From: Syntrophus aciditrophicus SB
GTDB taxonomy: Bacteria > Desulfobacterota > Syntrophia > Syntrophales > Syntrophaceae
Reading direction: 5' to 3'
Assembly: GCF_000013405.1 (NCBI RefSeq)
Contig: NC_007759.1
Span: 2,605,001-2,669,000 of the forward strand
DNA length: 64,000 bases
Part shown: piece by piece, positions 3,149 to 44,049 of the stretch
Numbering within the stretch: the stretch's first letter is position 1
Layout of the letters: each line of letters starts with the position of its first letter
Notes under the pieces: generated by a model
Told to the model about the DNA's origin: nothing
The model's database searches: none
Seen by the model: only the letters and a program-made list of their open reading frames with translations
Program-made: the position numbers and the translations under genes

Positions 3149-3172
3149 TTTCCCTGAAAATCCCCTGTATCT

Positions 3173-3567: not shown

Positions 3568-4197
3568 CTATCCCATAAATTTCTCAGCCGTCGCCTGTCC
3601 CGGCTGATTGATCCCTTCCCGTTTGAAGATTTTCCAGATCGTCATGACGATGATCCGAATGTCCAGCGAAATCGATACGTGATCCACATACCAGACATCC
3701 AGTTTGAACTTGTCTTCCCAACTCAGGGTATTGCGCCCGTTGACCTGCGCCCAGCCGGTGATCCCCGGCCGTACCTCGTGACGCCTGGCCTGTTCCAGCG
3801 TGTAGCGTCCCAGATATTCCATCAGGAGAGGCCGCGGCCCCACCAGGCTCATCTCTCCTTTCAGGACATTCCACAATTCCGGCAGCTCATCCAGGCTTGT
3901 GCTCCGGAGGAATCGCCCGAACCGCGTCAGCCGTTCGGCATCGGGAAGAAGGCTGCCCGCGCTGTTCCGTGCATCGGTCATGGTCCGGAATTTATAAAGG
4001 AAAAAGGGTTTACCCTTAAGGCCGGGGCGCTGCTGGGTGAAAAAGACAGGCGCACCCAGCCTGCAGCGAATCAGCAAAGCCAGCAAACAGAGCAAAGGGG
4101 AAAGGCCGAGCAGGGCTGGAATTACGAGAAGCAGATCGAAGAGACGCTTGGTGACGAGCTTGGAGCTGCCTTTTGAAATAACAGATGATCTATTGAT
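3568..4197 (-). CDS. PglC/WcaJ-type undecaprenyl-phosphate sugar phosphotransferase; start codon unclear
   Basis: Single-domain phosphoglycosyl transferase: one N-terminal membrane segment followed by the conserved core with [28 protein letters not shown] and [14 protein letters not shown]. Such enzymes start a glycan by moving a sugar phosphate onto undecaprenyl phosphate at the inner membrane. The family-typical beginning ([16 protein letters not shown]) is encoded, but between the upstream stop TAA (4198-4200) and the first TTG (4093-4095) there is no ATG, GTG or TTG in this frame. The frame is the same as that of the upstream glycosyltransferase. AGGAG at the end of that gene is well spaced for an ATC codon at 4197; an ATT lies at 4179. 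Starting at the TTG would remove conserved sequence, so the full open frame is given here (up to 209 residues). Confidence 0.85.
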
Positions 4198-5421
4198 TTA
4201 AGGTTCTCCTGCAAGCGTGCATGCAAGACGAACGAATTCCACCGCCTGTGTGGAACGATTGAAGTGTTTTGCCACATAATTTCTGGCGGTGGCTCCCATC
4301 GCTCGCGCCTGCTCAGGATGCAAGGCCATCCATCGCACAGCCTTGGCCAGCGCTTTGTCATCACCGGGCGGCACGAAGATGCCCCCGCCGGCGGCTTCGA
4401 TGACCTCCCGGATTACCCCATCGATGGCCAGAATACTCGGCCTTCCGGCCGCCATGTAATCGAAGACCTTATTGGGATATGTCGTCCGGAACATGGGTAT
4501 GTCCATCAGAATGGCCAGGCATGCATCCGAGGCCGCCAGGATGTCCGGCATATCCGACTTCGGCCTTGAACCGGCAAAGATGACATTGGGAAGATTCATT
4601 TCCTCGGCCATGCTTTCCAGGTTCTGTCGCTCCTTGCCGTCGCCTACGAAAAGAAAACGAATATTCTCCAGATCCCGCAACCTGTCTGCCGCGCGCAAAA
4701 CCGTCGGAATGTCATTGGCCATCCCCAATGCTCCGGCATAAGTGACAACGAAGCAACCATCCAGTCCCAGTTCCCGTCGCACCTTTCCACCCGCGGCTTG
4801 GGGATTGAACAGCTCCGGATCCACTCCATTGGCGACAAGACTGATCTTTTCCAGGACGATGTCTTTATTATGAATATAATCGCGATAAGCCGGGGAATTG
4901 ACCAGGATATGATCGGCGCGGGCGTACAGAAAATTTTCCAGCCAGCGGGAAAGTCTGATCAGAAAAGGATTTTTCAATACTCCCATGTCTATGGCAAATT
5001 CCGGCCAGAGATCCCGGATTTCCAGAAGAAACGGTTTTCTCCGCAGCAGGGCGACGAGCCACGCAGACACGGCCTGGAAAATAGACGGTGAAGTCCCCAT
5101 GACCAGGTCCACAGGACCAGCCCTCAAGCCCGCCCACACCGATGAAATCATGAAGCTCAGGAAAGAAACGATCCGCCAGACAAAACTGCGATGAACGGAG
5201 GGGTAGGTATAAGCTCGCAGAACACGCACCCCTTCAACATTCTGCTCCGTTACCAGGCCGTCGCGCTCGACGACGGGCTTTCCCGTCAAATAGCTCAGGT
5301 CGCTGGCCACGATGGTGAACTGATGTCCTTCCCGCAGCATTCGCTGGGCCAGTTCGAAATGGCGGGTGCCGCCCGCCTCGGAGGGAGATACAAAAGCCTG
5401 GTGAATCAGGAGAACATGCAT
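4198..5421 (-). CDS. Glycosyltransferase family 4 (WbuB-like)
   Basis: A 407-residue GT-B glycosyltransferase. The N-terminal domain opens with HVLLIHQAFVSPSEAGGTRH, typical of the WbuB group (L-FucNAc transferases of O-antigen clusters). The C-terminal nucleotide-sugar-binding domain contains VTYAGALGMANDI, FLFVGDGKER and the YPNKVFDYMAAGRPS segment with the donor-binding region. It should act at the cytoplasmic face of the membrane on a lipid-linked acceptor. The start ATG (5421) overlaps the end of the heparinase-like gene by 16 bp. Its stop is directly followed, in the same frame, by the initiating transferase, so the two products are tightly co-expressed. Donor specificity is not certain from the sequence alone. 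Confidence 0.9.
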   Translation of the reverse strand: MHVLLIHQAFVSPSEAGGTRHFELAQRMLREGHQFTIVASDLSYLTGKPVVERDGLVTEQNVEGVRVLRAYTYPSVHRSFVWRIVSFLSFMISSVWAGLRAGPVDLVMGTSPSIFQAVSAWLVALLRRKPFLLEIRDLWPEFAIDMGVLKNPFLIRLSRWLENFLYARADHILVNSPAYRDYIHNKDIVLEKISLVANGVDPELFNPQAAGGKVRRELGLDGCFVVTYAGALGMANDIPTVLRAADRLRDLENIRFLFVGDGKERQNLESMAEEMNLPNVIFAGSRPKSDMPDILAASDACLAILMDIPMFRTTYPNKVFDYMAAGRPSILAIDGVIREVIEAAGGGIFVPPGDDKALAKAVRWMALHPEQARAMGATARNYVAKHFNRSTQAVEFVRLACTLAGEP

Positions 5422-7556
5422 TCGTTCAGTTCCAATCTATCCGCTGGATTTCCTGTAAGGTTGATATGGGCAATCATTGGAGAAGTTCCGTCCGGTGATA
5501 AAAGAAGATCAGCCTGCCAGGTTGGCGACCTCAGAATCACATGATCCTCAGATTTCTCGACGCAGATCGATTCGGGGCTGAACAGCGTCCAGAAGAACGT
5601 CTGCGAACCATGTACGGTCAGATCCAGCGAAAGGGCCGGTTCCCGGTAGTTGTAATAAGGCGCCCGCCACCCGCGGGGTGAATCCTCATCGGCACAGACA
5701 AGCGTATAAGAACCGTTCCGGGGTTCTGCTCCCGCCTGAAGGTGATAGTCCCCGGCTTCTGTCCGCAGAGTCAGCAATCCAATGGATTCGTCCCACACAT
5801 GGTTAAAATCAGGCAAAAGCCAACGGAGGCGATAACGGTGCGCCTTTGAACCCGATAACCGATCTATGACCAGCCAGCTCTCCGGCCCCAATTGCAAAAT
5901 CCCACGCCGATGCTCCACAGGTGACGGCAGCCGCAGGTAACCATCATGTGTCCCCTCCCAATAGGCCAAATGTCCTGTCTCAGAGCGCTTCATGCAACGG
6001 ACTTTTCCTTTCAGCCAGGGAAACCAGAGAAATTTTCCGGCACGATCCATTTGATCCCGGTCATCCACAGTGACGGTATTATGATAGGCCGTATGGGCCA
6101 GGGGATTATTCCAGGGTTCCGGCGCGTTGTAACTGTATGTTCCCGCATCCAGGGCAATATTCTGGCCCTGCCACCAGAGATCGCAATGCAGAATATCGGC
6201 CTGTCCCGGACGGTCCCGGAAGGTTGCGCAACGGGTAAAAGCAAACCCGGTATCGGCACGCAGGACATAGTAACCACCATCCGGCGCTGCAAAATCTTTT
6301 CTCGTTCCGGTTCTCACAGGCGCAGACAGGGCATTTGGACCGAACAGCCACAGAAGATCTTCGTCCCAAGGCCCGCTCTCAAACAACCGTTCCCAGGTGA
6401 AGTAATAATGCGTCGCCTGCACCACGGGCCGGAAATCAAGATAATCGCAGTTGTTCAACGGCAAAATCAGCGCCCCGTCGTTCTGCCCGCACCAGGGCAC
6501 ACGGCCGGTTGCTTCATCCTGAAGTTGATAAATCCACTCGCCGGCTTTCGCTACCCGATCCTTCAACTCTTCGCTCAAGGGTTGCCAGTTCAAATCCCCA
6601 AGGCGAAAGGCCCACAGATAATCATGCAGCATCAACCGGTGATAATTCACGGAATGCTGGCTGAACGAACCATCCTCGTAAATCAGGGATTTTCCCTGCT
6701 CCTCCAGATAACGGCGGCCCTTTTCCCGCCATCGTTGAGCATTCGGCAATTCGGTGAAAAGCAACCCAATCGTCCACAGACCAAGCGCTTCGCTGATCCC
6801 ATGATTGTTACGCTGACTGAGGGCGTAGGCAATGTTGCCTTCAATCCTCTCCCCCGAAACCGCGATCATCCCGGCCAGCGATGCCAGCCGTTCAGCGGTG
6901 GTTGCCTGCGCATTCAGAAATCCATGAAGCCCGAAACACCAAGCCATAACCCGGAAGGTAATTTCCTGACCGCATTTCCAGTTCGGGCCAAGGTTAGGCT
7001 GATTGTTAAGCCGCCAGTCTTCAAGCAATCTCCAGAAAAGCTCGGGATAGGATTCATCACCGGAACGCCAATAGGCGCGTACAAGAGGATAAACAAAAGA
7101 GAATCGGCTGAGCTCCCAGATCAGCTTTATATCGCCGGCGCCGAAATCACTTATTTGGCTCCAGTGTTTGTCTGACGGCGCGGCGTCTCCCGTGGCGGCA
7201 TTTACATTCCAGCGGGGCGGAAATCCGGCATCAATATGATTATGGGAGAATTGGCTGAATATGCCTTGCTTGATATTTTCAGCCTCGTGAATAATGCCCT
7301 GAGGCTCAACTTCGTTATCAAATGAATTTAAAAGGGGTTGAAAATCAGTGCGTGAATCAGGAGAAAAGAAAAACCGGCCATAAGAGTGGCGGGATTCTTT
7401 AGAGAAGTCCCGATGCGCATCCCAATTTCCAGGCGGCATTTTCTTCTCCAGCAGGCCGCCATTCTGGAGCAGGCTATATTTCAAGCGAAACGCCAGCCAG
7501 GAGGGACCGAAATACCGGGTGGAAAAGAGCAGCCTTCGAAAAACGGAAGGGATCAT
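5406..7556 (-). CDS. Heparinase II/III-family protein (leaderless)
   Basis: A 716-residue protein with the two-part layout of heparinase II/III-type polysaccharide lyases. An alpha-helical toroid covers roughly residues 90-400, with the conserved WELSRFSFVYPLVRAYW and the active-site-like QRNNHGISEA. A beta-sandwich domain follows, with DILHCDLWWQGQNIALDAG and the TAYHNTVTVD segment. The chosen ATG (7556) overlaps the wecB stop as ATGA; a longer frame to 7613 would start inside wecB. There is no signal peptide or membrane anchor at this start. Classical members are periplasmic or secreted, so a cytoplasmic location would be unusual. Homologues in polysaccharide loci often sit beside two-domain oxidoreductases, as here (8650-10761). 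Whether it cleaves or otherwise modifies a glycan is unknown. Confidence 0.85.
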   Translation of the reverse strand: MIPSVFRRLLFSTRYFGPSWLAFRLKYSLLQNGGLLEKKMPPGNWDAHRDFSKESRHSYGRFFFSPDSRTDFQPLLNSFDNEVEPQGIIHEAENIKQGIFSQFSHNHIDAGFPPRWNVNAATGDAAPSDKHWSQISDFGAGDIKLIWELSRFSFVYPLVRAYWRSGDESYPELFWRLLEDWRLNNQPNLGPNWKCGQEITFRVMAWCFGLHGFLNAQATTAERLASLAGMIAVSGERIEGNIAYALSQRNNHGISEALGLWTIGLLFTELPNAQRWREKGRRYLEEQGKSLIYEDGSFSQHSVNYHRLMLHDYLWAFRLGDLNWQPLSEELKDRVAKAGEWIYQLQDEATGRVPWCGQNDGALILPLNNCDYLDFRPVVQATHYYFTWERLFESGPWDEDLLWLFGPNALSAPVRTGTRKDFAAPDGGYYVLRADTGFAFTRCATFRDRPGQADILHCDLWWQGQNIALDAGTYSYNAPEPWNNPLAHTAYHNTVTVDDRDQMDRAGKFLWFPWLKGKVRCMKRSETGHLAYWEGTHDGYLRLPSPVEHRRGILQLGPESWLVIDRLSGSKAHRYRLRWLLPDFNHVWDESIGLLTLRTEAGDYHLQAGAEPRNGSYTLVCADEDSPRGWRAPYYNYREPALSLDLTVHGSQTFFWTLFSPESICVEKSEDHVILRSPTWQADLLLSPDGTSPMIAHINLTGNPADRLELNECMFS

Positions 7557-8653
7557 GAAGAGAGCTTGCTGACGAGGATATCCACGATCCGCTCGGCAGT
7601 TTTTCCATCCCATTTCTCAGGGATGTCGCCCTTTTTCCAATTTCCTGAAAACAATTTTTCCATCGCCGGGGCAATGGCTCTGGGATCCGTGCCGATCAAT
7701 TCGTTTGTCCCAATGCTGATCGTTTCAGGTCTCTCCGTGTTGTCTCTCACGGTTATACACGGAACGTGCATCACCGTGGTCTCTTCCGTAATCCCGCCGG
7801 AATCCGTAATGACGGCTTTGGAATGTTTCACAAGGTAATTGAATTCGAGGTAGCCAAGGGGTTCGATCATATAAAGATTGGGCGCCTGGATTCCCATATT
7901 CTGCAGAATCTTCACCGTTCGGGGGTGGACCGGGAAAACCAGGGGTAGGCCCCTTGAACTGAAAATGATCACATCAAGCAATTCCTTTAGTTTACTTTCC
8001 TCATCGACATTGGCAGGCCGATGCAGGGTCACGACGATATAGCTGCCCGGCTCCAGGCCTGCCCGATCCCATATTTCCGGTTTTCGAAAACGGTCCATAT
8101 TCCGGAGCAGACTGTCGATCATGGTATTGCCCACAAAAAAAATCCGATCCTCAGCCACGCCGTTTTTTCGAAGATTTCTGTTGGCAAACTCGGAAGTTGT
8201 GAAAAAATAACTGGTCAGGCTATCGGTAACGATGCGGTTGATCTCCTCAGGCATGGTCCAGTCCCCGGAACGTATCCCCGCTTCCACATGGGCCACATCG
8301 ACCAGCATTTTGCGCGCGACAATGGAACAGGCCATCGTGGAGGTCACATCTCCCACGACCATGCACAAGTCAGATCGTTCCTGCCGCAACACGTTCTCAT
8401 AGCCCATCATGATCGCCGCGGCCTGTTCAGCCTGAGTGCCACCCCCAGCCCCCAGGTTGATATCGGGATCGGGAATACCGAGCTGCTCAAAAAAGCTTGC
8501 GCTCATGTTTTGATCATAATGCTGCCCCGTATGGATGAGGCGATAACGGAGAGTTGCGCCTTCCTGCTGTCTGGCCTTTATGGCGTCGACAATCGGTGCG
8601 ATTTTCATGAAGTTGGGCCGTGCACCGGCGATGAGGTCGATTAATTTGATCAA
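7553..8653 (-). CDS. wecB: UDP-N-acetylglucosamine 2-epimerase (non-hydrolysing)
   Basis: A 366-residue protein of the WecB/MnaA family. Diagnostic parts are GARPNFMKIAPI at the N-terminus, THTGQHYD-like RLIHTGQHYDQNMS, VAHVEAGIRSGD, VTLHRPANVDEE and ITDSGGITEE, the last in the UDP-binding site. It interconverts UDP-GlcNAc and UDP-ManNAc in the cytoplasm. The only suitable start is a TTG at 8653 that overlaps the stop of the upstream oxidoreductase as TTGA. Its stop overlaps the ATG of the heparinase-like gene, giving a coupled block. UDP-ManNAc could be oxidised to UDP-ManNAcA by the dehydrogenase at 20796-22484. Some members of this family act instead on 2,3-diacetamido uronates (WbpI type), which the sequence does not exclude. 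Confidence 0.9.
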   Translation of the reverse strand: MIKLIDLIAGARPNFMKIAPIVDAIKARQQEGATLRYRLIHTGQHYDQNMSASFFEQLGIPDPDINLGAGGGTQAEQAAAIMMGYENVLRQERSDLCMVVGDVTSTMACSIVARKMLVDVAHVEAGIRSGDWTMPEEINRIVTDSLTSYFFTTSEFANRNLRKNGVAEDRIFFVGNTMIDSLLRNMDRFRKPEIWDRAGLEPGSYIVVTLHRPANVDEESKLKELLDVIIFSSRGLPLVFPVHPRTVKILQNMGIQAPNLYMIEPLGYLEFNYLVKHSKAVITDSGGITEETTVMHVPCITVRDNTERPETISIGTNELIGTDPRAIAPAMEKLFSGNWKKGDIPEKWDGKTAERIVDILVSKLSS

Positions 8654-10761
8654 ATCTTAACCCATTCCCCTTTTTTCAGGCTCTCGATCGCCGCGAAAGA
8701 GGCCAGGGTCACGTTTTCGATCTCAGAAAAGGGGATCAGGGCTTCCCCGCCATGGTTCAAGCGATCCGTAAGCAGTTTAAACTGAGTTTCATGCCCTTTA
8801 TCAATAGAGGTTTTCAGCCCCTTGAATCCGGAAAAACCATAGGCCTCGGTTTTTCGGAAATTATCCATGATGGCAATCCGTCCCTGACTGTAGACTTCCA
8901 CCCTCTCCTTGGAATAGGCCTTGTGCCCGTTGGCAAAATAATTGATCACGCCATTGGAACCGTTGGCAAAACGCAGCAGAAGTGAGGCATTATCTGTATT
9001 TTCCTTTGGGTTGGGACCCAGTGCGTTCATGCAGACCCCCTCGATCAAACTGCCGGTCAGATAAACCAGTAAGTCCAGATAATGACAGGCCTCGCCGATA
9101 ATACGGCCGCCGCCGATTTCCATGTCATGGACCCACACCGATGGGGAAATGGCACCGGCGTTCATTGTGGCAACAATACTGATTGGTCCCGGCTGATCTC
9201 CCAGCGCCTTTTTGATGGCTTGGATATGAGGTGAAAACCTGCGATTAAAGCCCACTGTCAGACTGTTGCTCCCCTTCAGGTAAGTCGTCCTAATCTCCTC
9301 AAATTCCGTTGGGGTCAATGCCAGGGGTTTTTCCACAAAGACATCTTTACCGGCTTTCAGGCATTCGACCACCATCCGGGCATGGAGGTTATGCCGCGTG
9401 GTTATCATAACCATGCTCACCGCAGGATTCGAGAGTATTTCCCAGTAATCCGTAGTGCTGCTGGCTATGCCATATGACTTCGCCAGATGCGTTCCCGACA
9501 AACCATTAGCCGACGAAATAAAGCTTATCGGGGTACCCGCTTTTTTCAACGCGGGAAGCACAGTCATTTTGGTGAAGTTACCCGCACCGATGATGCCCAG
9601 ACTTTTGCCTGCATTAAAACTTTTGGAAATGATAGGAATTGCCCGTTCACGTTTATCCGAACCGGAATAGACCAAAATGGACGCAATGGAATGGGATCGC
9701 CCGATACTTCCATAGATCTTCTGAAAATCGTCCAGACGGACTCTTTCCGTGATCAGGGATTTGACGTCAAGCAGACCCGAGGCAATGGCCTGCAATACGG
9801 CTTCGAAATTACGTTTCTCCGTCCAGCGAACAAAGCCGATAGGATAATCCTGCCCCTTTTGTTCATAGTTTTCATCGTATCGTCCAGGACCATAGGAGGA
9901 ACTGACCTGAAACGTCAGTTCTTTCTCATAGAATTCCGCACGGTTGAGATTAAGCCCCACCACTCCGATCAGGATGATACGACCTCTCTTTCTGCTCATG
10001 CGGGCGGACTGCGAGATGACGTCGTCCGTCTTGGCCGAGGCGGTAATGATCACGCCATCAGCTCCAATATCGGCAGTCTGCTGCATCACCGCTGCAACCG
10101 TATCCGATTCTCTGGGATCGATGGTCGTGCAACCCATTTGCCGCGCCATCGCCAACTTTGACGGATCGAGGTCAATACCGATTACGCGGCAACCGTTAGC
10201 ATTCAGCAATTGAGCGGTGATGAGTCCGATCAGTCCTAATCCGAACACCACAATGGTTTCACCCAGGGACGGCTGGCAAAGCCTGATGCCCTGCAGCCCG
10301 ATAGAACCAATCACGGTAAAGGCTGCTTCTTCATCGGATACGGCATCTGGAATTTTCGCCGCAAGGTTCTGTGGCACACATACGTATTCAGCATGCGGCC
10401 CATTGGAAGCCACCCGGTCACCAACTTTAAACTCAGATACGCCATCCCCCGTTTCCACCACCACGCCGGCATTGCAATAGCCCAAGGGAAGTGGCTCATT
10501 CAACCTTTTAAAGACCGCCTCCAAGGTCGGCAGCAGTCCCTCTGTTTTAATCTTATCCAGAACTTGTTTGACCTTGTCTGGCTGCTGCCTAGCTTTCTGG
10601 ATCAGACTTGCCCTGCCAAACTCAACCAGCATGCGCTCTGTCCCAAGAGAAACCAAACTATGGGTGGTCTTAATCAGAACTTGGCCAAGACCTGATTTCG
10701 GCACGGGTACTTCTTCAAGGAATGTTTCACCGGTCTTGAGGTTTTGAATGAGCTGTTTCAT
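8650..10761 (-). CDS. Two-domain oxidoreductase: alcohol-dehydrogenase-like plus Gfo/Idh/MocA
   Basis: A 703-residue fusion. Residues 1-355 form a medium-chain dehydrogenase-like domain (EVPVPKSGLGQVLIKTTHS, GLGLIGLITAQLL). The usual N-terminal zinc cysteine is not apparent: the spot reads SLVSLGTE. Residues 380-703 form a Gfo/Idh/MocA dehydrogenase domain (LGIIGAGNFTKMTVLPALK, the EKP motif in DVFVEKPLALT, then VGFNRRFSPH). Such bi-domain proteins occur almost only in polysaccharide loci, commonly beside heparinase-like genes. Their reaction is not established; redox chemistry on a nucleotide sugar is likely from the two NAD(P) sites. The ATG overlaps the stop of the upstream glycosyltransferase (ATGA). 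A full paralogue is at 16405-18600. Confidence 0.85.
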   Translation of the reverse strand: MKQLIQNLKTGETFLEEVPVPKSGLGQVLIKTTHSLVSLGTERMLVEFGRASLIQKARQQPDKVKQVLDKIKTEGLLPTLEAVFKRLNEPLPLGYCNAGVVVETGDGVSEFKVGDRVASNGPHAEYVCVPQNLAAKIPDAVSDEEAAFTVIGSIGLQGIRLCQPSLGETIVVFGLGLIGLITAQLLNANGCRVIGIDLDPSKLAMARQMGCTTIDPRESDTVAAVMQQTADIGADGVIITASAKTDDVISQSARMSRKRGRIILIGVVGLNLNRAEFYEKELTFQVSSSYGPGRYDENYEQKGQDYPIGFVRWTEKRNFEAVLQAIASGLLDVKSLITERVRLDDFQKIYGSIGRSHSIASILVYSGSDKRERAIPIISKSFNAGKSLGIIGAGNFTKMTVLPALKKAGTPISFISSANGLSGTHLAKSYGIASSTTDYWEILSNPAVSMVMITTRHNLHARMVVECLKAGKDVFVEKPLALTPTEFEEIRTTYLKGSNSLTVGFNRRFSPHIQAIKKALGDQPGPISIVATMNAGAISPSVWVHDMEIGGGRIIGEACHYLDLLVYLTGSLIEGVCMNALGPNPKENTDNASLLLRFANGSNGVINYFANGHKAYSKERVEVYSQGRIAIMDNFRKTEAYGFSGFKGLKTSIDKGHETQFKLLTDRLNHGGEALIPFSEIENVTLASFAAIESLKKGEWVKI

Positions 10762-11897
10762 TGTAATTCTTCTAATTCTTTATACATTTGTATCAAATGC
10801 TTTGCCTCGGCTTCCCAGTTGTAATGTTGTTGCACAGCTTTCTGAGCGCGTACGCCCATTTCATGAATTAAATCAGGTGAGCTGACCAATTCATCAAGTT
10901 TCTTTGCTAAATCAGCCGGATTGGCGGTGTCAACAAGTAGGCCACACTTGGCTTCCTTGACGAATGGTGCAACTTCCATTGCAAACTCAGGACAGATAAC
11001 AGCCATACCAGCAGCCATATAATCAAACATTTTATGAGGCATTGCATAAACGTGGTTAAGGATTCCGGGTTGAAAGACAACAAGTCCGATGTGGGCCTGC
11101 ATAAGGTGTTTAAAAGCATCTTCAAAAGGCATCCAATCGTACACAACAACGCGATCATTTAACCCATAAGCACTGACAACTGAATCGAAGTCTGCGCGAG
11201 ACCCATCATTGAAATCACCAATAACCACAAGACGCACATTTTTTTGCTTCATAGTCTTTAAGGCTTCAAGGGTTTGCGGCCAACCACGAATTTTACCGAA
11301 CAAGCCAAGATGAATAAGGGTTACATCACTTCCCTTAGGCACTACTTCTCGTACACCCGTAAAGTTTATCCCAGACAAGGGCGTGAAATTGCGCACAAGT
11401 ACTTTTTTGCTGTCGGAATTTGGAAAATCATCAGATACACTTTTTTTGGCAAGAACCAAACGGTCAGTGAAGGGAAGAAACAGGCGAAAAATCAGTTTCA
11501 CAAGTGAAGAAACGGCGGGCTGTATCCATTTTGGAAACCTACTTTCAGCAAAAGTGCTTGGATAGTGTTCATGAACGTCAAACACACACAGTTTTTTTCT
11601 TAATATTTTTAAAAGTACACCAACAAACCAGGAATCAACTTCATTACAGTGATAAACATCTGCATTTATCTTATTCGCCATCCTGTATAGTTGAAATATT
11701 TGTAGGAGGCGACCCTTGATACCCGATGGTCTACAATAAGGCACAATCTCAACATCATTAAATACACCGGAATCTGATGCTGTACCTGGACAAAGATGTA
11801 ATACTTTGTATCCATTAGATGACAGCGTCACAGCCTCTTTATCAAAAACACGTTTATCATGTGGCGGGTGCATGGAGGAAACTAAACAAATTTTCAT
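10758..11897 (-). CDS. Glycosyltransferase family 4
   Basis: A 379-residue GT-B glycosyltransferase. The start ICLVSSMHPPHDKRVFDKEA and the C-terminal part with LGLFGKIRGWPQTLEAL, MPHKMFDYMAAGMAV and the GLLVDTANPADLA segment are typical of family 4. It probably adds one sugar to the lipid-linked repeat unit at the cytoplasmic face. The ATG at 11897 overlaps the stop of the polymerase gene (ATGA), and its own stop overlaps the start of the oxidoreductase. From here to about 20.6 kb the DNA becomes visibly richer in A and T than the surrounding cluster. Donor and linkage cannot be inferred. Confidence 0.88.
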   Translation of the reverse strand: MKICLVSSMHPPHDKRVFDKEAVTLSSNGYKVLHLCPGTASDSGVFNDVEIVPYCRPSGIKGRLLQIFQLYRMANKINADVYHCNEVDSWFVGVLLKILRKKLCVFDVHEHYPSTFAESRFPKWIQPAVSSLVKLIFRLFLPFTDRLVLAKKSVSDDFPNSDSKKVLVRNFTPLSGINFTGVREVVPKGSDVTLIHLGLFGKIRGWPQTLEALKTMKQKNVRLVVIGDFNDGSRADFDSVVSAYGLNDRVVVYDWMPFEDAFKHLMQAHIGLVVFQPGILNHVYAMPHKMFDYMAAGMAVICPEFAMEVAPFVKEAKCGLLVDTANPADLAKKLDELVSSPDLIHEMGVRAQKAVQQHYNWEAEAKHLIQMYKELEELQ

Positions 11898-13237: not shown

Positions 13238-14484
13238 GTTTTTCTCCTTGAGTTCAACAAATATGTTAAACAGAAAATAATACCTGATAGCATAAGAGTC
13301 GAAAACATGATTTTAGATCCGTAAACTACTGCTCTTATATCTCTATATTCACATATTGCATAACCATATAATAGACCAATCAGAGCCAATACCAAAACAA
13401 TCAGATTACAAGGCAACATGTATCTCAACTCAATATGATTACGCAGGGAATAAAACAGGCATACAGCAGGAGTAAAAATCATCAACTCATCCAGTATGGA
13501 TACAACTTTGCTGAAAGAATGCGGCAACCAAAGCGTTATTAAAAATTCACCCACGGCGTAGTAAGCTGCTACGGCCACCCATCCGCCCGCAAAACTCAGT
13601 AACCCAAGAAGAAAAATGCGTCGTTCTTCTTTGACACGATCATGTTGATAACTGTTTGCGCGAAGTGCAAGCACTTGTGCAACTGGCATGATTAATGTTT
13701 GCGCTATCCGCAAGACAGTGTATGCGATAATAAGGTGGCCTGCTTGGACGGGGGAACCTTTAAGTAACCAAGGTCCTATTGTCATAGTTCCCATGTCTGC
13801 AAAAGCTGTCAAACCACGGGTTAAACCATAGAAAAAGACGGGTCTATCAATTGACCAATTATTATTAATGGATACATTTTTATTAACAAATCGCCTTCCA
13901 AAGGCAATCAAAGAAATCATAGAGACAAGAAGCGTTAGAGATGACAAACAAAGTGCAAAAGACGTATTTGAAAGTTTATTTCCTATCAGAATGCATAAAA
14001 CAAAAATAAGGCTTCCATTTAACCAATCTACCATGTTGGATTGAACAAGTTTAAACTCCACAAGCCATGCCGAACACGCCAGAAAGCCAAAAGCCATACC
14101 TGAAACATAGAGAGCAAAAGACCATGCAAGGGCTTGGTCTGATGCGCTAAAAAGAAAAGAGGAAAACTGAGGTCCATATATGGCTGAAATTAAGAATAAA
14201 GCTGCACTCAATGCCACTACCCATTTCACAAAAACCCACCACAGGCGTGATCTTGAATCTTTATCTGGGTTTGAGGGGTAGAATTTCTGGAGACTTTGGG
14301 AAAATCCCAGTTGCAAGAGATTCCCCCAAAAAGTAACCTGCCTACGCAGCAAAAGCATCAATCCCATCGTCCCTGAAGACAACATGAAATCAGCAAGCCA
14401 TATGCTCAACAGTAGGAAAACACTTTTAATAAGGGTAAAACCAAGATTAATAGATACTTGGGATCGAGCAGCGAGGTAGCTCAT
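13234..14484 (-). CDS. Wzx-like polysaccharide flippase
   Basis: A membrane protein of 416 residues with about twelve hydrophobic segments. It belongs by appearance to the MOP flippase superfamily: the region TMGLMLLLRRQVTFWGNLLQ followed by LGFSQSLQKFYPSN resembles the first helices of Wzx/RfbX proteins. It should move undecaprenyl-linked repeat units across the inner membrane for the adjacent Wzy-like polymerase. The ATG at 14484 overlaps the AsnB stop as ATGA, matching the overlap pattern of the neighbouring genes. An ATG at 14490 or a TTG at 14508 are alternatives. Base composition is AT-rich like the next gene. Other polytopic exporters cannot be fully excluded without a profile search. 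Confidence 0.75.
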   Translation of the reverse strand: MSYLAARSQVSINLGFTLIKSVFLLLSIWLADFMLSSGTMGLMLLLRRQVTFWGNLLQLGFSQSLQKFYPSNPDKDSRSRLWWVFVKWVVALSAALFLISAIYGPQFSSFLFSASDQALAWSFALYVSGMAFGFLACSAWLVEFKLVQSNMVDWLNGSLIFVLCILIGNKLSNTSFALCLSSLTLLVSMISLIAFGRRFVNKNVSINNNWSIDRPVFFYGLTRGLTAFADMGTMTIGPWLLKGSPVQAGHLIIAYTVLRIAQTLIMPVAQVLALRANSYQHDRVKEERRIFLLGLLSFAGGWVAVAAYYAVGEFLITLWLPHSFSKVVSILDELMIFTPAVCLFYSLRNHIELRYMLPCNLIVLVLALIGLLYGYAICEYRDIRAVVYGSKIMFSTLMLSGIIFCLTYLLNSRRKT

Positions 14485-16403
14485 GAGCATGAAAGCTCTT
14501 TTTGCCAAACTAAGAAATTATAAACAACCCATAGTTGGAAAGCTTCATTAACTGTTCGAAGCCCGTATTTCAATTGATACTCGAGCTGCCGGCGGTCAAA
14601 GATGCTTGCACTATCAAGAAAATCTTCAGCAAGCAAATCAAGCAAAGCATCACCCAGCTCCCCCTTGAACCATTGCTGAATCGGCACACCAAATCCTGTT
14701 TTTGGCCTATAAATATCTTCTTTACTGACATATTTAGTTGCCAGCTTCTTGATAGGCTCCTTAGCCACCCCATTCCTGAGTTTGTAAGAATCAGGAACTC
14801 GCATGGAAAAATCCATCAAATCACGATCCAGAAATGGCACTCTAACTTCAACTGAGTTTGCCATGGCCATTTTGTCCGCCCGCATTAATAGCAATTCGGG
14901 GAGGCGTAGTTGCAGTTCAATAAAAGTCAATTGTTGCAAAAAACTGGCATTGGGACATTCATTTTGAATCTTCGTGTAATAAGGTGCTACTACATTAAAA
15001 GAGTCCAAGTTTTCTATCGCATGGCGTAGTTCTGGTGCTAAAATACGCTGTTTTTCCATTTCGTAGTAAGCCACGGCAGAAGACATAAAAAGTTTCTGCC
15101 CCTTCGCGCGGCGAACCAAGACGTCAGAAATTTTACGAGACTTTGGTGAATTGCTGTAGGATAATATATTGGCTCCGATATGGCTTAACCAACAGGGTAA
15201 TTTGCTTAAAGGCTGCCATAAAAAGGAATGATGCCTGAGAAATCGCCGATAATTGTCGTATCCACAAAAGAGTTCATCGGCTCCCTCGCCTGCCTGCAGT
15301 ACGGTGACCCCTCTCTCTTTAGCGAATTTGGTCACAAAATAAAGAGGGACTGAGACAGGGTCAGAAACAGGTTCATCTTGTAACAGTGCTAATTTCTCAG
15401 CCGCAGCCAAAAGATCAGCTTCGTTGATGCGCATTTCATGATGATCGCTACACAACCGCAACGCCATTTCGCGAGCAATAGTCGAATCATCGTGGAAACT
15501 TCCGGCATTATCCATCCCAATGGTAAAAGTCTTTACTTTTTCAGGAGATATCAGTTTACTAAAAGAGCAGAGATTTAACGTCGAATCTACCCCTCCAGAA
15601 AAAAGGACACCAACAGGGACATCCGACATCAGCCTTTTTTTCACTGAAGACGCAAATAAAAACTCAAGTTCGTCATCGAATTCCTCAAAACTACGATGCG
15701 CCTGAACCTTTGGAATAGGTAACCAATATTTCACGAAATGAGGTCTATATCCCTTTTGGGGCTCTAGAGTCATCATACTTGCTGACTCAAGTTTATATAC
15801 CCCTTTTACTAATGTCTGGGGCGGCGGAACTACCAGAAATGTTAGATAATGATAAAAGGAGGTCAAATCAATCGACTTGTCGATACTTGGATACCTGAGT
15901 ATCGCCTTAATCTCTGATGCAAAAATTAAACGACCATCTACATAGGTATAGTAAACCGGTTTAACTCCAGCCCTGTCACGAATAAGAATAAGGCGCCTCT
16001 TCTCGCAGTCCCATAATCCCAACCCAAAATCACCGTCCAAATATTCGTAGAACAGTTCACCATATTCCTGATACAGATAAAGAATTACTTCCGTATCAGA
16101 GTTGGATCGAAAGGAATACCCCCGTGCCACCATATCTTTGCGTAAGGTTGTGTAGTTATAGATCTCACCATTGAACGTTAACCATACTCTTTCGTCTGGG
16201 GTGGACATGGGCTGGTGCCCGGCCTCACTAAGATCAACGATGGCAAGTCTGCGATGTGCCAGCCCGCACTGCCCGTCAGCCTGCACCCAAACTCCTGACC
16301 CATCCGGTCCGCGATGAGTCATGGATGAAGCCATCATAACCAGCAAAGACTGATCTATGGGGTTGCAATTTTCAACATTAATGATGCCAAGAATCCCGCA
16401 CAC
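14481..16403 (-). CDS. Glutamine-dependent asparagine synthase-type amidotransferase
   Basis: A class II glutamine amidotransferase of 640 residues in the AsnB family. The catalytic cysteine must follow the initiator directly, which fixes the start at the GTG at 16403 (protein begins M-CGILGIINVENC); a frame beginning at 16418 would bury it. The N-terminal domain has MTHRGPDGSG and LAHRRLAIVDLS, and the synthetase domain has the ATP pyrophosphatase loop VLFSGGVDST. In O-antigen clusters such proteins (for example WbpS of Pseudomonas aeruginosa) amidate uronic acids. With a nucleotide-sugar dehydrogenase nearby (20796-22484), uronamide formation is more likely here than asparagine synthesis. 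A second, different copy is at 31973-33937. The GTG lies one base after the upstream stop. Confidence 0.9.
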   Translation of the reverse strand: MCGILGIINVENCNPIDQSLLVMMASSMTHRGPDGSGVWVQADGQCGLAHRRLAIVDLSEAGHQPMSTPDERVWLTFNGEIYNYTTLRKDMVARGYSFRSNSDTEVILYLYQEYGELFYEYLDGDFGLGLWDCEKRRLILIRDRAGVKPVYYTYVDGRLIFASEIKAILRYPSIDKSIDLTSFYHYLTFLVVPPPQTLVKGVYKLESASMMTLEPQKGYRPHFVKYWLPIPKVQAHRSFEEFDDELEFLFASSVKKRLMSDVPVGVLFSGGVDSTLNLCSFSKLISPEKVKTFTIGMDNAGSFHDDSTIAREMALRLCSDHHEMRINEADLLAAAEKLALLQDEPVSDPVSVPLYFVTKFAKERGVTVLQAGEGADELFCGYDNYRRFLRHHSFLWQPLSKLPCWLSHIGANILSYSNSPKSRKISDVLVRRAKGQKLFMSSAVAYYEMEKQRILAPELRHAIENLDSFNVVAPYYTKIQNECPNASFLQQLTFIELQLRLPELLLMRADKMAMANSVEVRVPFLDRDLMDFSMRVPDSYKLRNGVAKEPIKKLATKYVSKEDIYRPKTGFGVPIQQWFKGELGDALLDLLAEDFLDSASIFDRRQLEYQLKYGLRTVNEAFQLWVVYNFLVWQKELSCS

Positions 16404-16404
16404 T

Positions 16405-18600
16405 TTAAAGAATCGCACTCACTTGCTTTGTTGTATTGAAAATAAATGCCATGTCTATGGTTCTATTAGTCTCAGCGCTTTTTAGTGCAGCTTCCGTAAT
16501 AGCTGTCGCCCATAATCCAGCCACCGCGTTAGCACCACCTCCGCCATCACCATTTTTTATAGCCCGAGAAAATTCCAGTATGGCCCCATGTTGTCCCTTG
16601 TTTTTCTTATATTTGCGAGGTGCAGCAACGCCACATCCAAATGACTTAATCATTTTATAGTCGTCCATCACAATAGACCTGCCATTACCAAACAACTCAA
16701 AATGTTCTTTCCCAAGCCCGGTATGCCCAACCGTTGTATAGACGACATTGGCAATAGAGCCATCTTCATAGCGAATAGTGACACTGGCATTGGGGTTAAG
16801 GACATTTACTTCCCCCAAAAACTGAGCACTGACAGTGACAGGGTTGCAATCCATCATCCAATTGGCCAGATCGAAAAAATGTACGCCCTCACCAAGCAGC
16901 CGTCCCCCCTCTTCTACTGTATTCGACCAGTGATTGCCCACTTGGCCAACATTTACACGAACATTAAACAACTTACGGCCTATTCCTACGGCCCGTTTCA
17001 TCTCTTGCAAATAAGGAGAAAAACGCCGGTTAAATCCGACTCTAAGAACGAGCCCAGTCTCCTGTTGTAATGAAACAATTTGCAGACAGTCTGCCAAAGT
17101 AATCGCCATTGGCTTTTCCACAAAGACATGCTTTCCCGCAGACAAAGCAGCCAACACGAGTTTTGCATGGCTGGCATGCCGGGTTGATATGACTACTGCA
17201 TCAAGTTGTTTATCGGATAACATCTCCGATATATCAGATGTAGCGTAGGCAGCTTTCACTTTCTTAGCCACCACAGCCGCAGTGGCACCTGACTTGCTGG
17301 ACAATGCTCGAATAATCACATTTTCCAGTTTTTGAATGTTTGGCACGTGAACATTTTTTGCGTAGCCACCAACACCTATCAGGCCAATTTGCAGACACTT
17401 TTTATCTTGAGCAAGGGTATTGGTATCATAGCGACAAATAAAAGCGTGTTGCGGCAACTGCGGCTGAGGCGGCAGGTGATAATCAAGCAACACACCATAG
17501 ACATCGGAGTTGCCTGCCTTGATAAGCGAATAAGCCTTTTTGGCATCTTCGATCCCAATTTTCGCTGATACAAGATCACCTAAATCTAATCGTTTTTCGG
17601 CAAGGAGATGAATAAAAAACTCCAGGTTGCGTCGTTCAGTCCAGCGAACATGGGGCAAAGGATAATCTCTACCACCAAGTTCGTAGTCTGGGTCATAGCG
17701 GCCGACACCGTAGGAACAGGAAAGTCGTACCTCCAGCTCCTTGGAATACATTTTGGCCCGTTCAAGCTCTAAACCAATATCGCCAACCACAGAAACCCGT
17801 CCACGCTTGCGGCACAGCATGAAAGCCTGATTAATAACGCTATCAGCTTTTCCTGAGGCGCAAATCACAATGCCATCAAGGCCGTTGCCGTGTGATGCTT
17901 CCATTGCAACGGATACCGGATCAGTTGAAGCAGAGTTTACAACTAGGCTTGCTTGACTGTGTCGTGCTGCTTTAGCAACCCGGTGATCGGAAATATCAAA
18001 TCCATAGGCTTGGTACCCCATTACTGTTGCCAGACGGAGGGCAATCTGCCCTATCAACCCAAGACCTATGACACCAACCCTCTCACCTGGCGACAATTCA
18101 AGGCGTCTTATTCCCTGCATGGCAATGCAAGCGATTGCAGCAAACGCAGCCTCATCAAAATTGACGTTATCAGATAAAGGTACCGCGAGGTTTTTCGGCA
18201 CAACAACATATTCGGCATGGTTGGCAAAACCGGTCCCCATGCAGGCAACCCGTTGGTCAGGCTTGAAACCAAGATCATCTTTGTCTGTTTCCAAAACCAC
18301 GCCTGCACAACTGTACCCAATGGGGGAGTAGTCGTTGAGTTTATCCCGTATAAGCTTGAGCGTATTGGACATCCCCTGACCTTGAACCATAGCCCAAACT
18401 TGGCCCATTTTGTCACGGGAGTTCAAAGCTTTTTCGTAAAGACCCTGTACACCACTATGCTTGGTTACTGCAGCTCCTTCAGTCCCAGCGCTAATTAGCG
18501 AATAAGCATTGTGAACCAGTATTCCACCACTCAAAAGACTAGGTATAGGCACATCAATAATGTCAATTTGTCCTTGCCCAGAAATAAAAACCTGTTTCAT
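16405..18600 (-). CDS. Two-domain oxidoreductase: alcohol-dehydrogenase-like plus Gfo/Idh/MocA (second copy)
   Basis: A 731-residue paralogue of the protein at 8650-10761 with the same order of domains. The dehydrogenase-like part (residues 1-370) carries SLISAGTEGA where zinc-dependent members have the catalytic cysteine, and GVIGLGLIGQIALRLA as the Rossmann motif. The Gfo/Idh/MocA part (from about residue 405) shows GLIGVGGYAKNVHVPNIQ, HVFVEKPMAIT and VGFNRRFSPYLQEM. It lies between a heparinase-like gene (12 bp upstream) and AsnB (1 bp downstream), repeating the association seen at the first copy. The two copies differ clearly in sequence and in base composition, so they are not a recent duplication. 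The reaction is unknown; redox modification of a sugar or of a glycan end is an inference. Confidence 0.85.
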   Translation of the reverse strand: MKQVFISGQGQIDIIDVPIPSLLSGGILVHNAYSLISAGTEGAAVTKHSGVQGLYEKALNSRDKMGQVWAMVQGQGMSNTLKLIRDKLNDYSPIGYSCAGVVLETDKDDLGFKPDQRVACMGTGFANHAEYVVVPKNLAVPLSDNVNFDEAAFAAIACIAMQGIRRLELSPGERVGVIGLGLIGQIALRLATVMGYQAYGFDISDHRVAKAARHSQASLVVNSASTDPVSVAMEASHGNGLDGIVICASGKADSVINQAFMLCRKRGRVSVVGDIGLELERAKMYSKELEVRLSCSYGVGRYDPDYELGGRDYPLPHVRWTERRNLEFFIHLLAEKRLDLGDLVSAKIGIEDAKKAYSLIKAGNSDVYGVLLDYHLPPQPQLPQHAFICRYDTNTLAQDKKCLQIGLIGVGGYAKNVHVPNIQKLENVIIRALSSKSGATAAVVAKKVKAAYATSDISEMLSDKQLDAVVISTRHASHAKLVLAALSAGKHVFVEKPMAITLADCLQIVSLQQETGLVLRVGFNRRFSPYLQEMKRAVGIGRKLFNVRVNVGQVGNHWSNTVEEGGRLLGEGVHFFDLANWMMDCNPVTVSAQFLGEVNVLNPNASVTIRYEDGSIANVVYTTVGHTGLGKEHFELFGNGRSIVMDDYKMIKSFGCGVAAPRKYKKNKGQHGAILEFSRAIKNGDGGGGANAVAGLWATAITEAALKSAETNRTIDMAFIFNTTKQVSAIL

Positions 18601-18612
18601 ATCAGTACATTA

Positions 18613-20613
18613 CTATTGAATTCGGTAAAATTTAAAATTACAGCAAAAATCCCCAGATGAAAGGCGGCCATCTGCGCAAATTGACCTGCCAGTTTGTTCC
18701 TGGCCATAACCACAACTGAAAAGTGATTCCTTAAGACTAAGTGGAAGATCCGATGTTATTTGAATTGAGTTTTTTATACCGAGCAATAATTCATTGGCTG
18801 ACTGTCGCACACAGTTCTGATTACCTATTGGAAAATGCCATCTTATTTTGGCATCATCGGTAGGAACATGAATCTCATCACAGATAAAGATTTCTTGTCT
18901 GGAGGGGTTTATTACAAATTTCCTACGCACCTTACTGCCAGAAGCAATTCGGCTATATCCATTATGACCGGCACAGATTATAATTTTTTCGCCATCTTCG
19001 GTAACGGAGACATCTATCGGTTGAGCATCATTGGAAATAAGCCAGTGGCCCGCAAATCGTGCGATTTCCTCTCCAAACAATTCAATGGTCGCATGACTCG
19101 CAGTGCTCCGATACAAAGTTTTTTTATCTAAATCAGACGTATATCCAGAACAGCCAGGATCAAGGACAACCGGTTCGCCACCGATATAGAGCTCAAATGC
19201 TAGTAAGTCGTTATGACCATGCCCACCTCTTCCCCCCATACCAACTTCCCCCACATCGACCATTAAAAAGAAGCCCTTGTCTTGATCTCGCACAATGACA
19301 TAACCGCCATTAACAAAATAGAACAATTCGTGAGAGATCGGTGCGGCAGGTGTTGCTCTGCAGCGCCCCAAAAGGAATAAGGGGGTTAGTTTCTCCTCTT
19401 CTCGAAATGCAACACTGCCTATGTTTTCATTAAAAAAGGAACGGGCTAATTCAACTACCGCCCCATGGCTATGTGGATTATGAAAATTGAAGGGTAAAGC
19501 TACAGCATCATCATTGTCCCCAAAGTTAGCCGCAAGGTTATCAGGCCTGATCAAAGCGTCACTAAATCGCGCTGCCTCAACAAGTCGTGCAGATGCTTCT
19601 TTATTAAAGGGTATACCAAGCCTTTCTCGGGTAATCGCAGCAATTAAAAAAAGTTCAAGAACCAATTTGTGATATCCACAAGATTTTTCAAAATTAACAC
19701 CATCTGGTAAAAATTGAAGAAATATCTCTTTATCCAACCAGCGGATTGAATAGCGCATCCACCTTTCTCGTCGATAACCACGTTGTCCGAGCACAGCTGC
19801 CGCCAATAGCAATGCCACAATGTTTGCAGTAAAATGGTTACCACGGATATCCGTAAACTCTCGATTATGCCAGACAAAAAAACCGTGTTCTTTGAGCATT
19901 ATTATTAGCAAACGTTTGAGTTTTTGAATTTCATCTGACAAATCGCTTGGCGCATCATGTGCAATTAAAGTTACAAAATCCAGCATCAGAGTTAAATTGA
20001 CAATACGCATGGAGGCTTCCATGGCGTACCAATTTACGCTATTAGCTATAGGATTTTCATCACGCCATCGTGAAAGAAACTTGTTGACCCAACATAACGC
20101 TTCAGAATCCTCACCTGAATACCAGTGCCATGCAAGAACGGGCACTAAATAGTGAAAGCGTGAAAGCTCCCACGGAAATTTCACATCATATGGTTCAGAC
20201 TTTTGCTCATAAAAATTATACTGCTTGTAATATTGCGGTTGCCATTTTTTCCCGAATCGCCAATCAACAGCAAAATCGCAACTGGTTAGTTCTGGTACAG
20301 GGTGGCTAAAAAGAGTAAATTTGGATGCCCTAACGTTATGCGCTAAAGACTTCAATTCATTTTGTTGAATATTAGAAAGAATGGGACGATTGGAAACAAC
20401 TAACAAAGGATCTATGCAGATATTAGTTGCAGTATTATTTTGTTGTGCTGTTTCTGAAAAACGCTGCCACGCTTTAGTCTTGGCCATCCATTTTAATTTT
20501 AGATATTGCAATACCCTGAAACAAATAACGCGAGGTGGTTTTGATAGAGATCGTCTAAATAAGTCTATATCCCCAATAATAATATCGTTATCTCCAAATC
20601 CATCTCGTATCAA
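18613..20613 (-). CDS. Heparinase II/III-family protein (second, leaderless)
   Basis: A 666-residue protein of the same superfamily as 5406-7556 but only distantly similar. The toroid domain has the shared WELSRFHYLVPVLAWHWYSG segment and RGNHFTANIVALLLAAA with the conserved Asn-His. The beta domain has GGHGHNDLLAFELYIGG and VVLDPGCSGYT, close to the canonical His-containing pattern of heparinase II/III. The start appears to be a TTG at 20613, preceded by AAGGAG ten bases upstream. An in-frame TGA lies just above it, so no longer frame is possible. No signal peptide is seen. It heads the AT-rich block and is followed by the two-domain oxidoreductase. Substrate and even lyase activity are unproven. 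Confidence 0.82.
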   Translation of the reverse strand: MIRDGFGDNDIIIGDIDLFRRSLSKPPRVICFRVLQYLKLKWMAKTKAWQRFSETAQQNNTATNICIDPLLVVSNRPILSNIQQNELKSLAHNVRASKFTLFSHPVPELTSCDFAVDWRFGKKWQPQYYKQYNFYEQKSEPYDVKFPWELSRFHYLVPVLAWHWYSGEDSEALCWVNKFLSRWRDENPIANSVNWYAMEASMRIVNLTLMLDFVTLIAHDAPSDLSDEIQKLKRLLIIMLKEHGFFVWHNREFTDIRGNHFTANIVALLLAAAVLGQRGYRRERWMRYSIRWLDKEIFLQFLPDGVNFEKSCGYHKLVLELFLIAAITRERLGIPFNKEASARLVEAARFSDALIRPDNLAANFGDNDDAVALPFNFHNPHSHGAVVELARSFFNENIGSVAFREEEKLTPLFLLGRCRATPAAPISHELFYFVNGGYVIVRDQDKGFFLMVDVGEVGMGGRGGHGHNDLLAFELYIGGEPVVLDPGCSGYTSDLDKKTLYRSTASHATIELFGEEIARFAGHWLISNDAQPIDVSVTEDGEKIIICAGHNGYSRIASGSKVRRKFVINPSRQEIFICDEIHVPTDDAKIRWHFPIGNQNCVRQSANELLLGIKNSIQITSDLPLSLKESLFSCGYGQEQTGRSICADGRLSSGDFCCNFKFYRIQ

Positions 20614-44045: not shown

Positions 44046-44049
44046 AGCG

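Follow-up and report, generated by a model that had tools for sequence, protein, structure and literature searches.

The 64,000-nucleotide stretch of the Syntrophus aciditrophicus SB genome analysed here (NC_007759.1, positions 2,605,001 to 2,669,000; hereafter the window) contains a surface-polysaccharide cluster that takes in most genes between 1.9 and 41 kb, on the minus strand. Within this cluster lie two gene sets in which a bi-domain oxidoreductase (BDO) stands with a heparinase II/III-like protein (Hep), and this analysis concerns the pair, its partners in other bacteria and the sugar chemistry it may perform. The genes of the two sets are:

4198–5421, minus strand: GT4 glycosyltransferase of a clade typically found 3' of Hep (PF13692/PF00534; clade test)
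5406–7556 (open reading frame (ORF) 5406–7613), minus strand: Hep1, leaderless heparinase II/III-like protein of the PxQ class (PF07940 162 bits, PF16889 71 bits)
7553–8653, minus strand: WecB-type non-hydrolysing uridine diphosphate (UDP)-N-acetylhexosamine (HexNAc) 2-epimerase, between BDO1 and Hep1 (PF02350; TIGR00236 308.7 bits, cut-off 210.15)
8650–10761, minus strand: BDO1, bi-domain oxidoreductase with a zinc-less MDR domain and a Gfo/Idh/MocA domain (PF00107, PF08240, PF01408, PF22725)
14481–16403 (ORF 14481–16418), minus strand: AsnB1, glutamine-dependent amidotransferase (PF00733, PF13537; TIGR01536 459.8 bits, cut-off 267.1)
16405–18600, minus strand: BDO2, second, diverged bi-domain oxidoreductase (PF00107, PF01408; 35% identical to BDO1)
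18613–20613, minus strand: Hep2, second heparinase II/III-like protein, HxH (HGHND) class (PF07940 153 bits)

An earlier note on this DNA, made from the letters alone, had pointed out two Hep genes, two BDO genes, an AsnB adjoining the second pair and a further AsnB at 31973, and all of them are present on the minus strand, at or near the positions it gave. Absent from that note were the WecB-type epimerase between BDO1 and Hep1 and the GT4 gene after Hep1. The first set runs BDO1, WecB-type epimerase, Hep1, GT4, sugar transferase, hexapeptide protein and DegT aminotransferase. BDO1 and the epimerase gene overlap by 4 bases, as do the epimerase gene and Hep1 when the latter is taken to begin at 7556, and by ORF coordinates Hep1 and the GT4 gene overlap by 16 bases. 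The Hep1 start at 7556 is preferred over that at 7613 because residues 1–19 of the structural model have a predicted local distance difference test score (pLDDT) below 50 and because of the 4-base overlap with the upstream gene. The second set runs Hep2, BDO2 and AsnB1, with one base from the BDO2 stop to the AsnB1 start; this start is probably the GTG at 16403, which would give a protein beginning MCGI, and AsnB1 has GATase_7 and Asn_synthase domains with the N-terminal Cys present. In both Hep1 and Hep2 the N and C domains of Pfam Hepar_II_III score over their cut-offs, and these two proteins are the only PF07940 matches in the whole genome.

The association of BDO with Hep is old and lies far above chance. 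A profile of 16 BDOs was scanned against a species-genome collection, which gave at least 557 confirmed relatives, of which the best 80 were kept; the window supplied the seeds for the hidden Markov models of Hep, AsnB, WecB and UGD. By record titles and genus names, the best 80 come from Bacteroidota, several proteobacterial classes, Planctomycetes, Verrucomicrobia, Nitrospirae, Acidobacteria, Bacillota, Actinobacteria, Cyanobacteria and others. Hep lies within 5 kb of the BDO in 69 of these 80 loci, immediately adjacent (gap below 300 bp) in 47 and farther away in 22. Of the 45 loci that extend 9 kb or more in both directions, 41 contain Hep, 22 a WecB-type gene, 14 a nucleotide-sugar dehydrogenase and 10 AsnB; locus counts miss genes past contig ends. 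The survey is biased towards BDO1-like loci, because the best matches to a BDO1-led profile were kept. Across 132 BDOs, Hep was found within 5 kb in 81 of the 95 that are at least 45% identical to BDO1 and in 15 of the 37 others. Hep furthermore adjoins BDO in five of seven plasmid records, and in the window's class (149 genomes) 8 of the 11 genomes that have a BDO also encode a PF07940 protein, versus 10 of the 138 others.

An independent sample came from a BDO2 search of 395 genomes of the phylum, in which 43 genomes match. The 43 loci used come from 42 genomes (G248 contributes two, and the window's own genome is excluded), and they were compared with the first 40 sugar transferase (PF02397) loci in list order, one per genome and starting beyond 9 kb. 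Within the fetched stretches of this phylum sample, Hep is present at 20 of the 43 BDO loci versus 1 of the 40 controls (Fisher p = 1.9e-6), and the sole control locus with Hep is itself the BDO locus of G227; restricted to loci of at least 16 kb, the counts are 14/30 and 1/31 (p = 7e-5). A chance-level co-occurrence, the outcome that the earlier note had named as contrary to its proposal, was thus not obtained. Nucleotide-sugar dehydrogenases occur at 4 of 43 BDO loci versus 4 of 40 controls. For 90 BDO–Hep pairs, the trees of the two proteins are partly congruent (Mantel r = 0.25, reached by 0 of 999 permutations), after L192, a duplicate of L126, and BDO ORFs shorter than 600 or longer than 950 residues had been dropped; the partners have therefore been both co-inherited and exchanged.

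The remaining partners differ in regularity. The earlier note had supposed that Hep, BDO and AsnB act on one chemistry, which is plausible, but AsnB turns out to be enriched and optional, and a GT4 glycosyltransferase accompanies the pair more regularly. Specifically, AsnB is found at 13 of 43 BDO loci versus 2 of 40 controls in the phylum sample (Fisher p = 0.0036), and it is regarded as an optional extra because most loci lack it, as in 35 of the 45 well-flanked survey loci; the two counts (10/45 and 13/43) rule it out as an obligate member. The WecB-type epimerase is present at 20 of 43 BDO loci versus 2 of 40 controls (p = 1.3e-5). In 89 cases the sequence after Hep is long enough to hold a gene, and in 63 of them the next gene is a GT4 resembling that at 4198–5421. 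All but one of these GT4s (62) belong to a single clade (support 0.993), which also contains 28 others.

In BDO1 and BDO2 alike, a dehydrogenase domain of the zinc type (MDR) is fused to a Gfo/Idh/MocA domain, and the NAD-binding glycines are kept in both halves. The AlphaFold2 model of BDO1 has a pLDDT of 88.2. In the Gfo/Idh/MocA half, the EKP motif and H560 are kept in 132 of 132 BDOs and D563 in 131. The catalytic zinc ligands of MDR enzymes (Cys and GHE) are absent from the other half: the corresponding positions hold Ser38 and Gly94-Tyr95 in 131 of 132 BDOs, with one gap each, and GHE of 5vm2 aligns to GYC, so that the label 'zinc-binding' is a misnomer for BDO. Foldseek matches to the Gfo half include KanD2, levoglucosan dehydrogenase and NAD-dependent glycosidases, enzymes that oxidise their sugar at C3. 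Residues 290–300 and 302–313 of BDO1 have a pLDDT below 50 and lie inside the most conserved stretch of the BDOs: fifteen checked positions in residues 290–318 (window 9808–9894) are kept in 124 to 132 of 132 sequences, as would befit a conserved mobile loop.

The AlphaFold2 model of Hep1 (pLDDT 92.2, predicted template modelling score 0.92) shows a two-domain (alpha/alpha) toroid and beta-sandwich, the fold of heparinase III of polysaccharide lyase family 12 (PL12). VIA-align matches it about equally well to heparinase III (Z 29.5, 6.4 Å over 552), to human dermatan sulfate epimerase 1 (DS-epi1, 6HZN; Z 28.6, 3.9 Å over 578 residues) and to alginate lyases (Z about 28), and the fold that these enzymes have in common with the model does not show the function of Hep1. 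PL12 heparinase III enzymes (4MMH, 5JMD, 4FNV) are the closest sequences with structures, and their Asn, Tyr, Tyr and His are kept in Hep1. They are secreted catabolic lyases. Unlike them, the Hep proteins look cytoplasmic: a crude hydropathy test detected no strongly hydrophobic 19-residue stretch at the N terminus of Hep1, Hep2 or the 67 survey Hep proteins longer than 480 residues, which bears out the description 'leaderless' in the earlier note. The NCBIfam HepC models NF045572 and NF045573 (cut-offs 600 and 700) are not reached by Hep1 (58.8 and 50.8 bits) or Hep2 (26.6 and 41.4 bits).

An alignment of 67 Hep sequences, comprising 65 from the survey and the window's two and excluding ORFs outside 480–850 residues, divides the family into two active-site classes. 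N270, H271, Y324, D379, D473, Y495, H511 and R570 are invariant in all 67, and five active-site columns (Hep1 residues 269, 319, 469, 476 and 478) switch in concert. In the first class (38/67) these read GNH or ANH, E and HxH; in the second (29/67, Hep1 included) they read NNH, Q and PxQ or PxH, with a new His seven columns further on and an Asp two beyond that. Both classes pair with the same BDO clades. Pro469 of Hep1 aligns with the His of the heparinase III HxQ motif, and Hep2 keeps HxH. In heparinase III this His has a catalytic role. Having Pro469 at the lyase His position, Hep1 thus departs from the standard lyases of this fold; Hep2 and the HxH class could, by their motifs, still be such lyases. 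By spacing to the second Tyr, Pro469 also corresponds to H444 of a PL33 lyase, whose catalytic residues are N238, Y291 and H444 and whose Tyr-His dyad is topped by a second Tyr, Tyr470 (PMC11848413).

Several published gene pairs resemble that of the window, and none of their strains is among the named hits of the plasmid and species-genome searches. In Pseudomonas aeruginosa PA14, zbdP-hepP (PA14_23420-23430) is an operon that encodes a zinc-binding dehydrogenase together with a heparinase II/III, whose co-occurrence was already noted in other pseudomonads (PMC5732420); the same genes, as ORF_10/ORF_11, were assigned to O-antigen biosynthesis (PMC3406104), and alpha-linked L-N-acetylgalactosaminuronic acid (L-GalNAcA) is present in the PA14 O-antigen (PMC2997053). 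The operon is likened to BDO and Hep by annotation, as a dehydrogenase and a heparinase gene; it differs in having been published as a heparinase and virulence factor rather than a sugar epimerase, and the available part of that account names no AsnB. In V. vulnificus YJ016, deletion of either VV0357 (zinc-binding dehydrogenase) or VV0358 (Hep) abolishes the capsule, and the authors proposed a heparosan- or alginate-like capsule with lyase clean-up (PMC6037467). This pair, too, is likened to that of the window by annotation, as a dehydrogenase and a heparinase II/III-like gene near a capsule locus. In Acinetobacter, WeeE/WeeF (gnlA/gnlB) are postulated to serve UDP-L-GalNAcA synthesis (PMC9676051). 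From these descriptions, WeeE/WeeF are probably a BDO and a Hep. We take weeE and weeF to adjoin in the Acinetobacter wee cluster. For the Vibrio polysaccharide (VPS) of V. cholerae, formation of L-GulNAcA from D-N-acetylmannosaminuronic acid (D-ManNAcA) by C5 inversion was suggested (PMC3901696). DS-epi1 shares the two-domain fold of Hep1 and is a C5 epimerase that acts at the polymer level (PMC8006597); it differs from Hep1 in being Golgi-lumenal and 11% identical. Agl32, an archaeal glucuronic acid (GlcA) C5-epimerase, was rejected as a relative, as its authors state that it differs from DS-epi1 (PMC13308652), and it is therefore a mere precedent for epimerisation on a short glycan. A literature search that mostly excluded subscription journals, and in which most papers were judged by their listing, turned up no paper treating BDO and Hep as one family. 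Pieces of the module are thus already in print, and the present analysis unites them as a single widespread module, whose kind is known but lacks biochemical characterisation; the earlier note's statement that the oxidoreductase has no established reaction holds for the literature found, but the pair already had names, mutants and a postulated product.

The available data are compatible with a model, which we hold tentatively and at a little under an even chance, in which BDO and Hep form a cytoplasmic biosynthetic pair that inverts stereocentres of an N-acetylhexosaminuronic acid, BDO the one at C3 and Hep the one at C5, most likely turning D-ManNAcA into L-GalNAcA. D-ManNAcA would be made by the WecB-type 2-epimerase and a UDP-HexNAc dehydrogenase. 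Hep would then invert C5 by proton abstraction, a chemistry that its fold shares with lyases and dermatan sulfate epimerase, while BDO would invert C3, one NAD-binding domain oxidising the C3 hydroxyl and the other re-reducing the 3-ketone from the opposite face in a redox-neutral process. The dedicated GT4 would transfer the precursor or the product; in loci that have an AsnB, this enzyme would turn the C6 carboxylate into an amide. L-GalNAcA is the proposed product because D-manno and L-galacto differ by exactly an inversion at C3 and at C5. Both reactions, their substrate and order, the roles of the domains and the choice between a UDP- and a lipid-linked substrate are what we infer; the association, gene order, predicted fold, conserved residues and lack of a hydrophobic leader were computed here.

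Support for the precursor comes from the neighbouring dehydrogenases. Typing covered 24 of 27 ORFs of 380–520 residues in distinct BDO loci, the three untyped ones being plasmid ORFs (L018, L019, L022) that carry a wecC label in their records. Twelve of the 24 score over the curated cut-off for UDP-ManNAc dehydrogenase (WecC), one of them (L080) at a locus without Hep nearby, and together with the enrichment of WecB-type epimerases these sequence matches point to ManNAcA as precursor. Of four dehydrogenases at control loci, three were typed, none as WecC and all as UDP-glucose type, and the fourth is the L126 gene again. The A. junii locus L099 brings together WecB, WecC over cut-off, BDO, Hep, GT4, a sugar transferase and DegT. 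By analogy, the presence of zbdP-hepP and alpha-L-GalNAcA in one strain, PA14, suggests L-GalNAcA as product, and the loss of capsule in V. vulnificus suggests a biosynthetic role.

A number of observations weigh against this model. The other 12 typed dehydrogenases do not reach the WecC cut-off: their best matches are TviB in five (one over cut-off), AglM-like in three, TuaD-like in one and unclear in three, and the AglM-like and TuaD-like proteins (L126, L020, L023, L033) are of UDP-glucose type. At the genome level in the phylum, WecC is not enriched with BDO (1/43 versus 4/352, E limit 1e-130), nor is TviB (10/43 versus 83/352, p = 1.0, E limit 1e-110). No WecC match in the window's genome reaches the cut-off, and the TviB-like UDP-GlcNAc dehydrogenase of this genome lies elsewhere (G000:C1:417043-418263; 533 bits, cut-off 592); the genome also has divergent dehydrogenases, one of which adjoins Hep2. 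As for the enzymes themselves, alignment and spacing place Pro469 of Hep1 at the equivalent of H450 of DS-epi1; of the His/double-Tyr set of that epimerase, mapped in the same way, Y324 and Y495 are invariant and the His is kept in 38 of 67 Hep sequences, the other 29 having Pro with a His seven columns on. Recombinant HepP (rHepP) is reported to be heparinase-active and cleared heparin in a plate assay, and the zbdP mutant is the milder one, pellicle formation being delayed in the hepP mutant and not in the zbdP mutant (PMC5732420). Finally, 23 of the 43 phylum-sample BDO loci have no Hep in the fetched stretch, and because these are just over half, BDO can act without Hep. Since WecC and TviB are not enriched and the window's genome lacks WecC, biosynthetic tailoring of a uronic acid is held more firmly than the specific product.

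A variant that we consider doubtful makes BDO and Hep a 3,5-epimerase on a sugar linked to a lipid carrier, converting D-ManNAcA to L-GalNAcA after its transfer by the dedicated GT4. The heparinase fold would here have been turned into a biosynthetic uronate epimerase and BDO would be its C3 stereo-inverter, and the two Hep classes would represent interchangeable sites, one using E with HxH and the other Q with PxQ, the relocated His and the Asp.

Alternatively, Hep could act in the cytoplasm as a genuine lyase, trimming, recycling or proofreading either lipid-linked intermediates or a polymer of uronic acids, and BDO could process the released or oxidised sugars. The heparin clearing by HepP, the PL12 heparinase III enzymes as closest structured sequences and the 38 of 67 Hep proteins with a His where heparinase III and PL33 lyases use theirs favour this view. 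It is nevertheless unlikely: BDO is linked to precursor-making genes, neither the survey Hep proteins nor those of the window show a hydrophobic N-terminal stretch, 29 of 67 including Hep1 have Pro at the His position, and deletion of VV0358 left the capsule absent rather than altered, although some losses of trimming enzymes also block export (PMC6037467). The earlier note had listed making, trimming and proofreading of a uronic-acid polymer side by side; making fits best, and the other two are less likely because of the cytoplasmic look, the V. vulnificus phenotype and the Pro-for-His exchange.

Somewhat improbable, too, is a scheme in which Hep performs C5 inversion or elimination on a uronic acid that varies between lineages (GlcA, GalNAcA or GlcNAcA), so that there is no single product, and BDO is a general C3 redox enzyme. 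Such variation would accommodate the UDP-glucose-type dehydrogenases at the four BDO loci named above, the sharing of BDO clades by both Hep classes and the negative genome-level test of WecC and TviB, but the WecB-type enrichment and the 12 of 24 WecC dehydrogenases indicate one common precursor in many loci.

That BDO makes a 3-keto sugar for 3-amination, as WbpB does on the way to 2,3-diacetamido uronic acids, while Hep serves another step, is quite improbable: its Gfo half does match NF040723 (UDP-GlcNAc 3-dehydrogenase), at 70–82 bits and far under the cut-off of 450, and DegT and hexapeptide genes lie nearby (1937–3565), but the DegT protein best matches the PseC and LegC models, below their cut-offs, and adjoins the sugar transferase rather than BDO, no DegT is listed in the well-flanked BDO–Hep loci L069, L079, L082, L094 and L098 (window-seeded BLAST), and the scheme accounts neither for the MDR domain fused to the Gfo half nor for the association with Hep.

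If the epimerase model favoured above is true, its implications extend beyond this locus. 'Heparinase' and 'alginate lyase' genes inside capsule and O-antigen loci are easily read as degradative; as epimerases that build L-sugars, they would change many annotations and make the origin of L-GalNAcA in bacterial glycans directly testable. Furthermore, the prediction of capsule structures from sequence would improve, and the reports on zbdP/hepP, VV0357/VV0358 and probably weeE/weeF would become one story.

The two sets of the window are not equivalent: the first (BDO1–WecB–Hep1–GT4) is the canonical module and the second is unusual. As the earlier note had stated, the paralogues are clearly diverged, with identities of 35% for BDO, 23% for Hep and 32% for AsnB, and these BDO and Hep values, together with the differing Hep classes and neighbours, rule out a recent duplication of the pair. 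The two pairs, moreover, do not look like one duplicated unit, because Hep1 belongs to the PxQ and Hep2 to the HxH class and their nearest relatives differ. The nearest other BDO-linked Hep lies at a tree distance of 4.05 from Hep2 versus 0.61 from Hep1. Excluding its own entry, Hep2 has 11 matches in the 395 phylum genomes, with BDO adjoining in three (L113, L117, L149); within the fetched stretches of the remaining eight, BDO was found in none and AsnB in one. The closest BDO2 relative in the phylum sample (G449, locus L108, 50% identity) adjoins an AsnB, and no Hep was found within about 9 kb of it. Hep–BDO–AsnB trios occur elsewhere (L113, L114, L149, L020, L023), but with 8 of 11 Hep2 matches lacking BDO in the stretch, the second set was rejected as a conserved trio. 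Under the epimerase model, Hep2, BDO2 and AsnB1 may provide a second uronic acid, possibly amidated; a repeat unit containing two modified uronic acids, of which one might carry an amide, would be in keeping with both sets being in the same cluster. A Cytophagaceae locus (L045; 906–3023 and 13218–14858) with content like that of the window has two Hep genes and two AsnB genes around one BDO.

The other annotated features of the cluster are:

1937–3148, minus strand: DegT/DnrJ/EryC1 aminotransferase (PF01041 335 bits)
3173–3565, minus strand: hexapeptide acetyltransferase-like protein (PF00132)
3568–4095, minus strand: initiating sugar transferase, downstream of the first set (PF02397 201.5 bits)
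10758–11897, minus strand: GT4 between the two sets
11894–13237, minus strand: Wzy-like protein between the two sets (weak match, below cut-off)
13234–14508, minus strand: Wzx-like protein between the two sets (weak match, below cut-off)
20796–22535, minus strand: divergent nucleotide-sugar dehydrogenase adjoining Hep2 (PF03720/PF00984/PF03721; TIGR03026 185.2 bits, cut-off 189.8)
31973–33937, minus strand: AsnB2, adjoining neither pair and of doubtful membership (PF00733 396.7 bits)

The dehydrogenase at 20796–22535, just under the general family cut-off, has about 75 extra N-terminal residues. A family 11 glycosyltransferase (fucosyltransferase type; 34987–35871, minus strand) lies inside the cluster, and a DUF772/DDE transposase (41383–42336, plus strand) lies at its edge. 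Near the cluster with its Wzx- and Wzy-like genes, an ATP-binding cassette (ABC) transporter ATPase (42738–44105, minus strand) has a weak, below cut-off Wzt C-terminal domain and possibly serves a second, ABC-dependent glycan.

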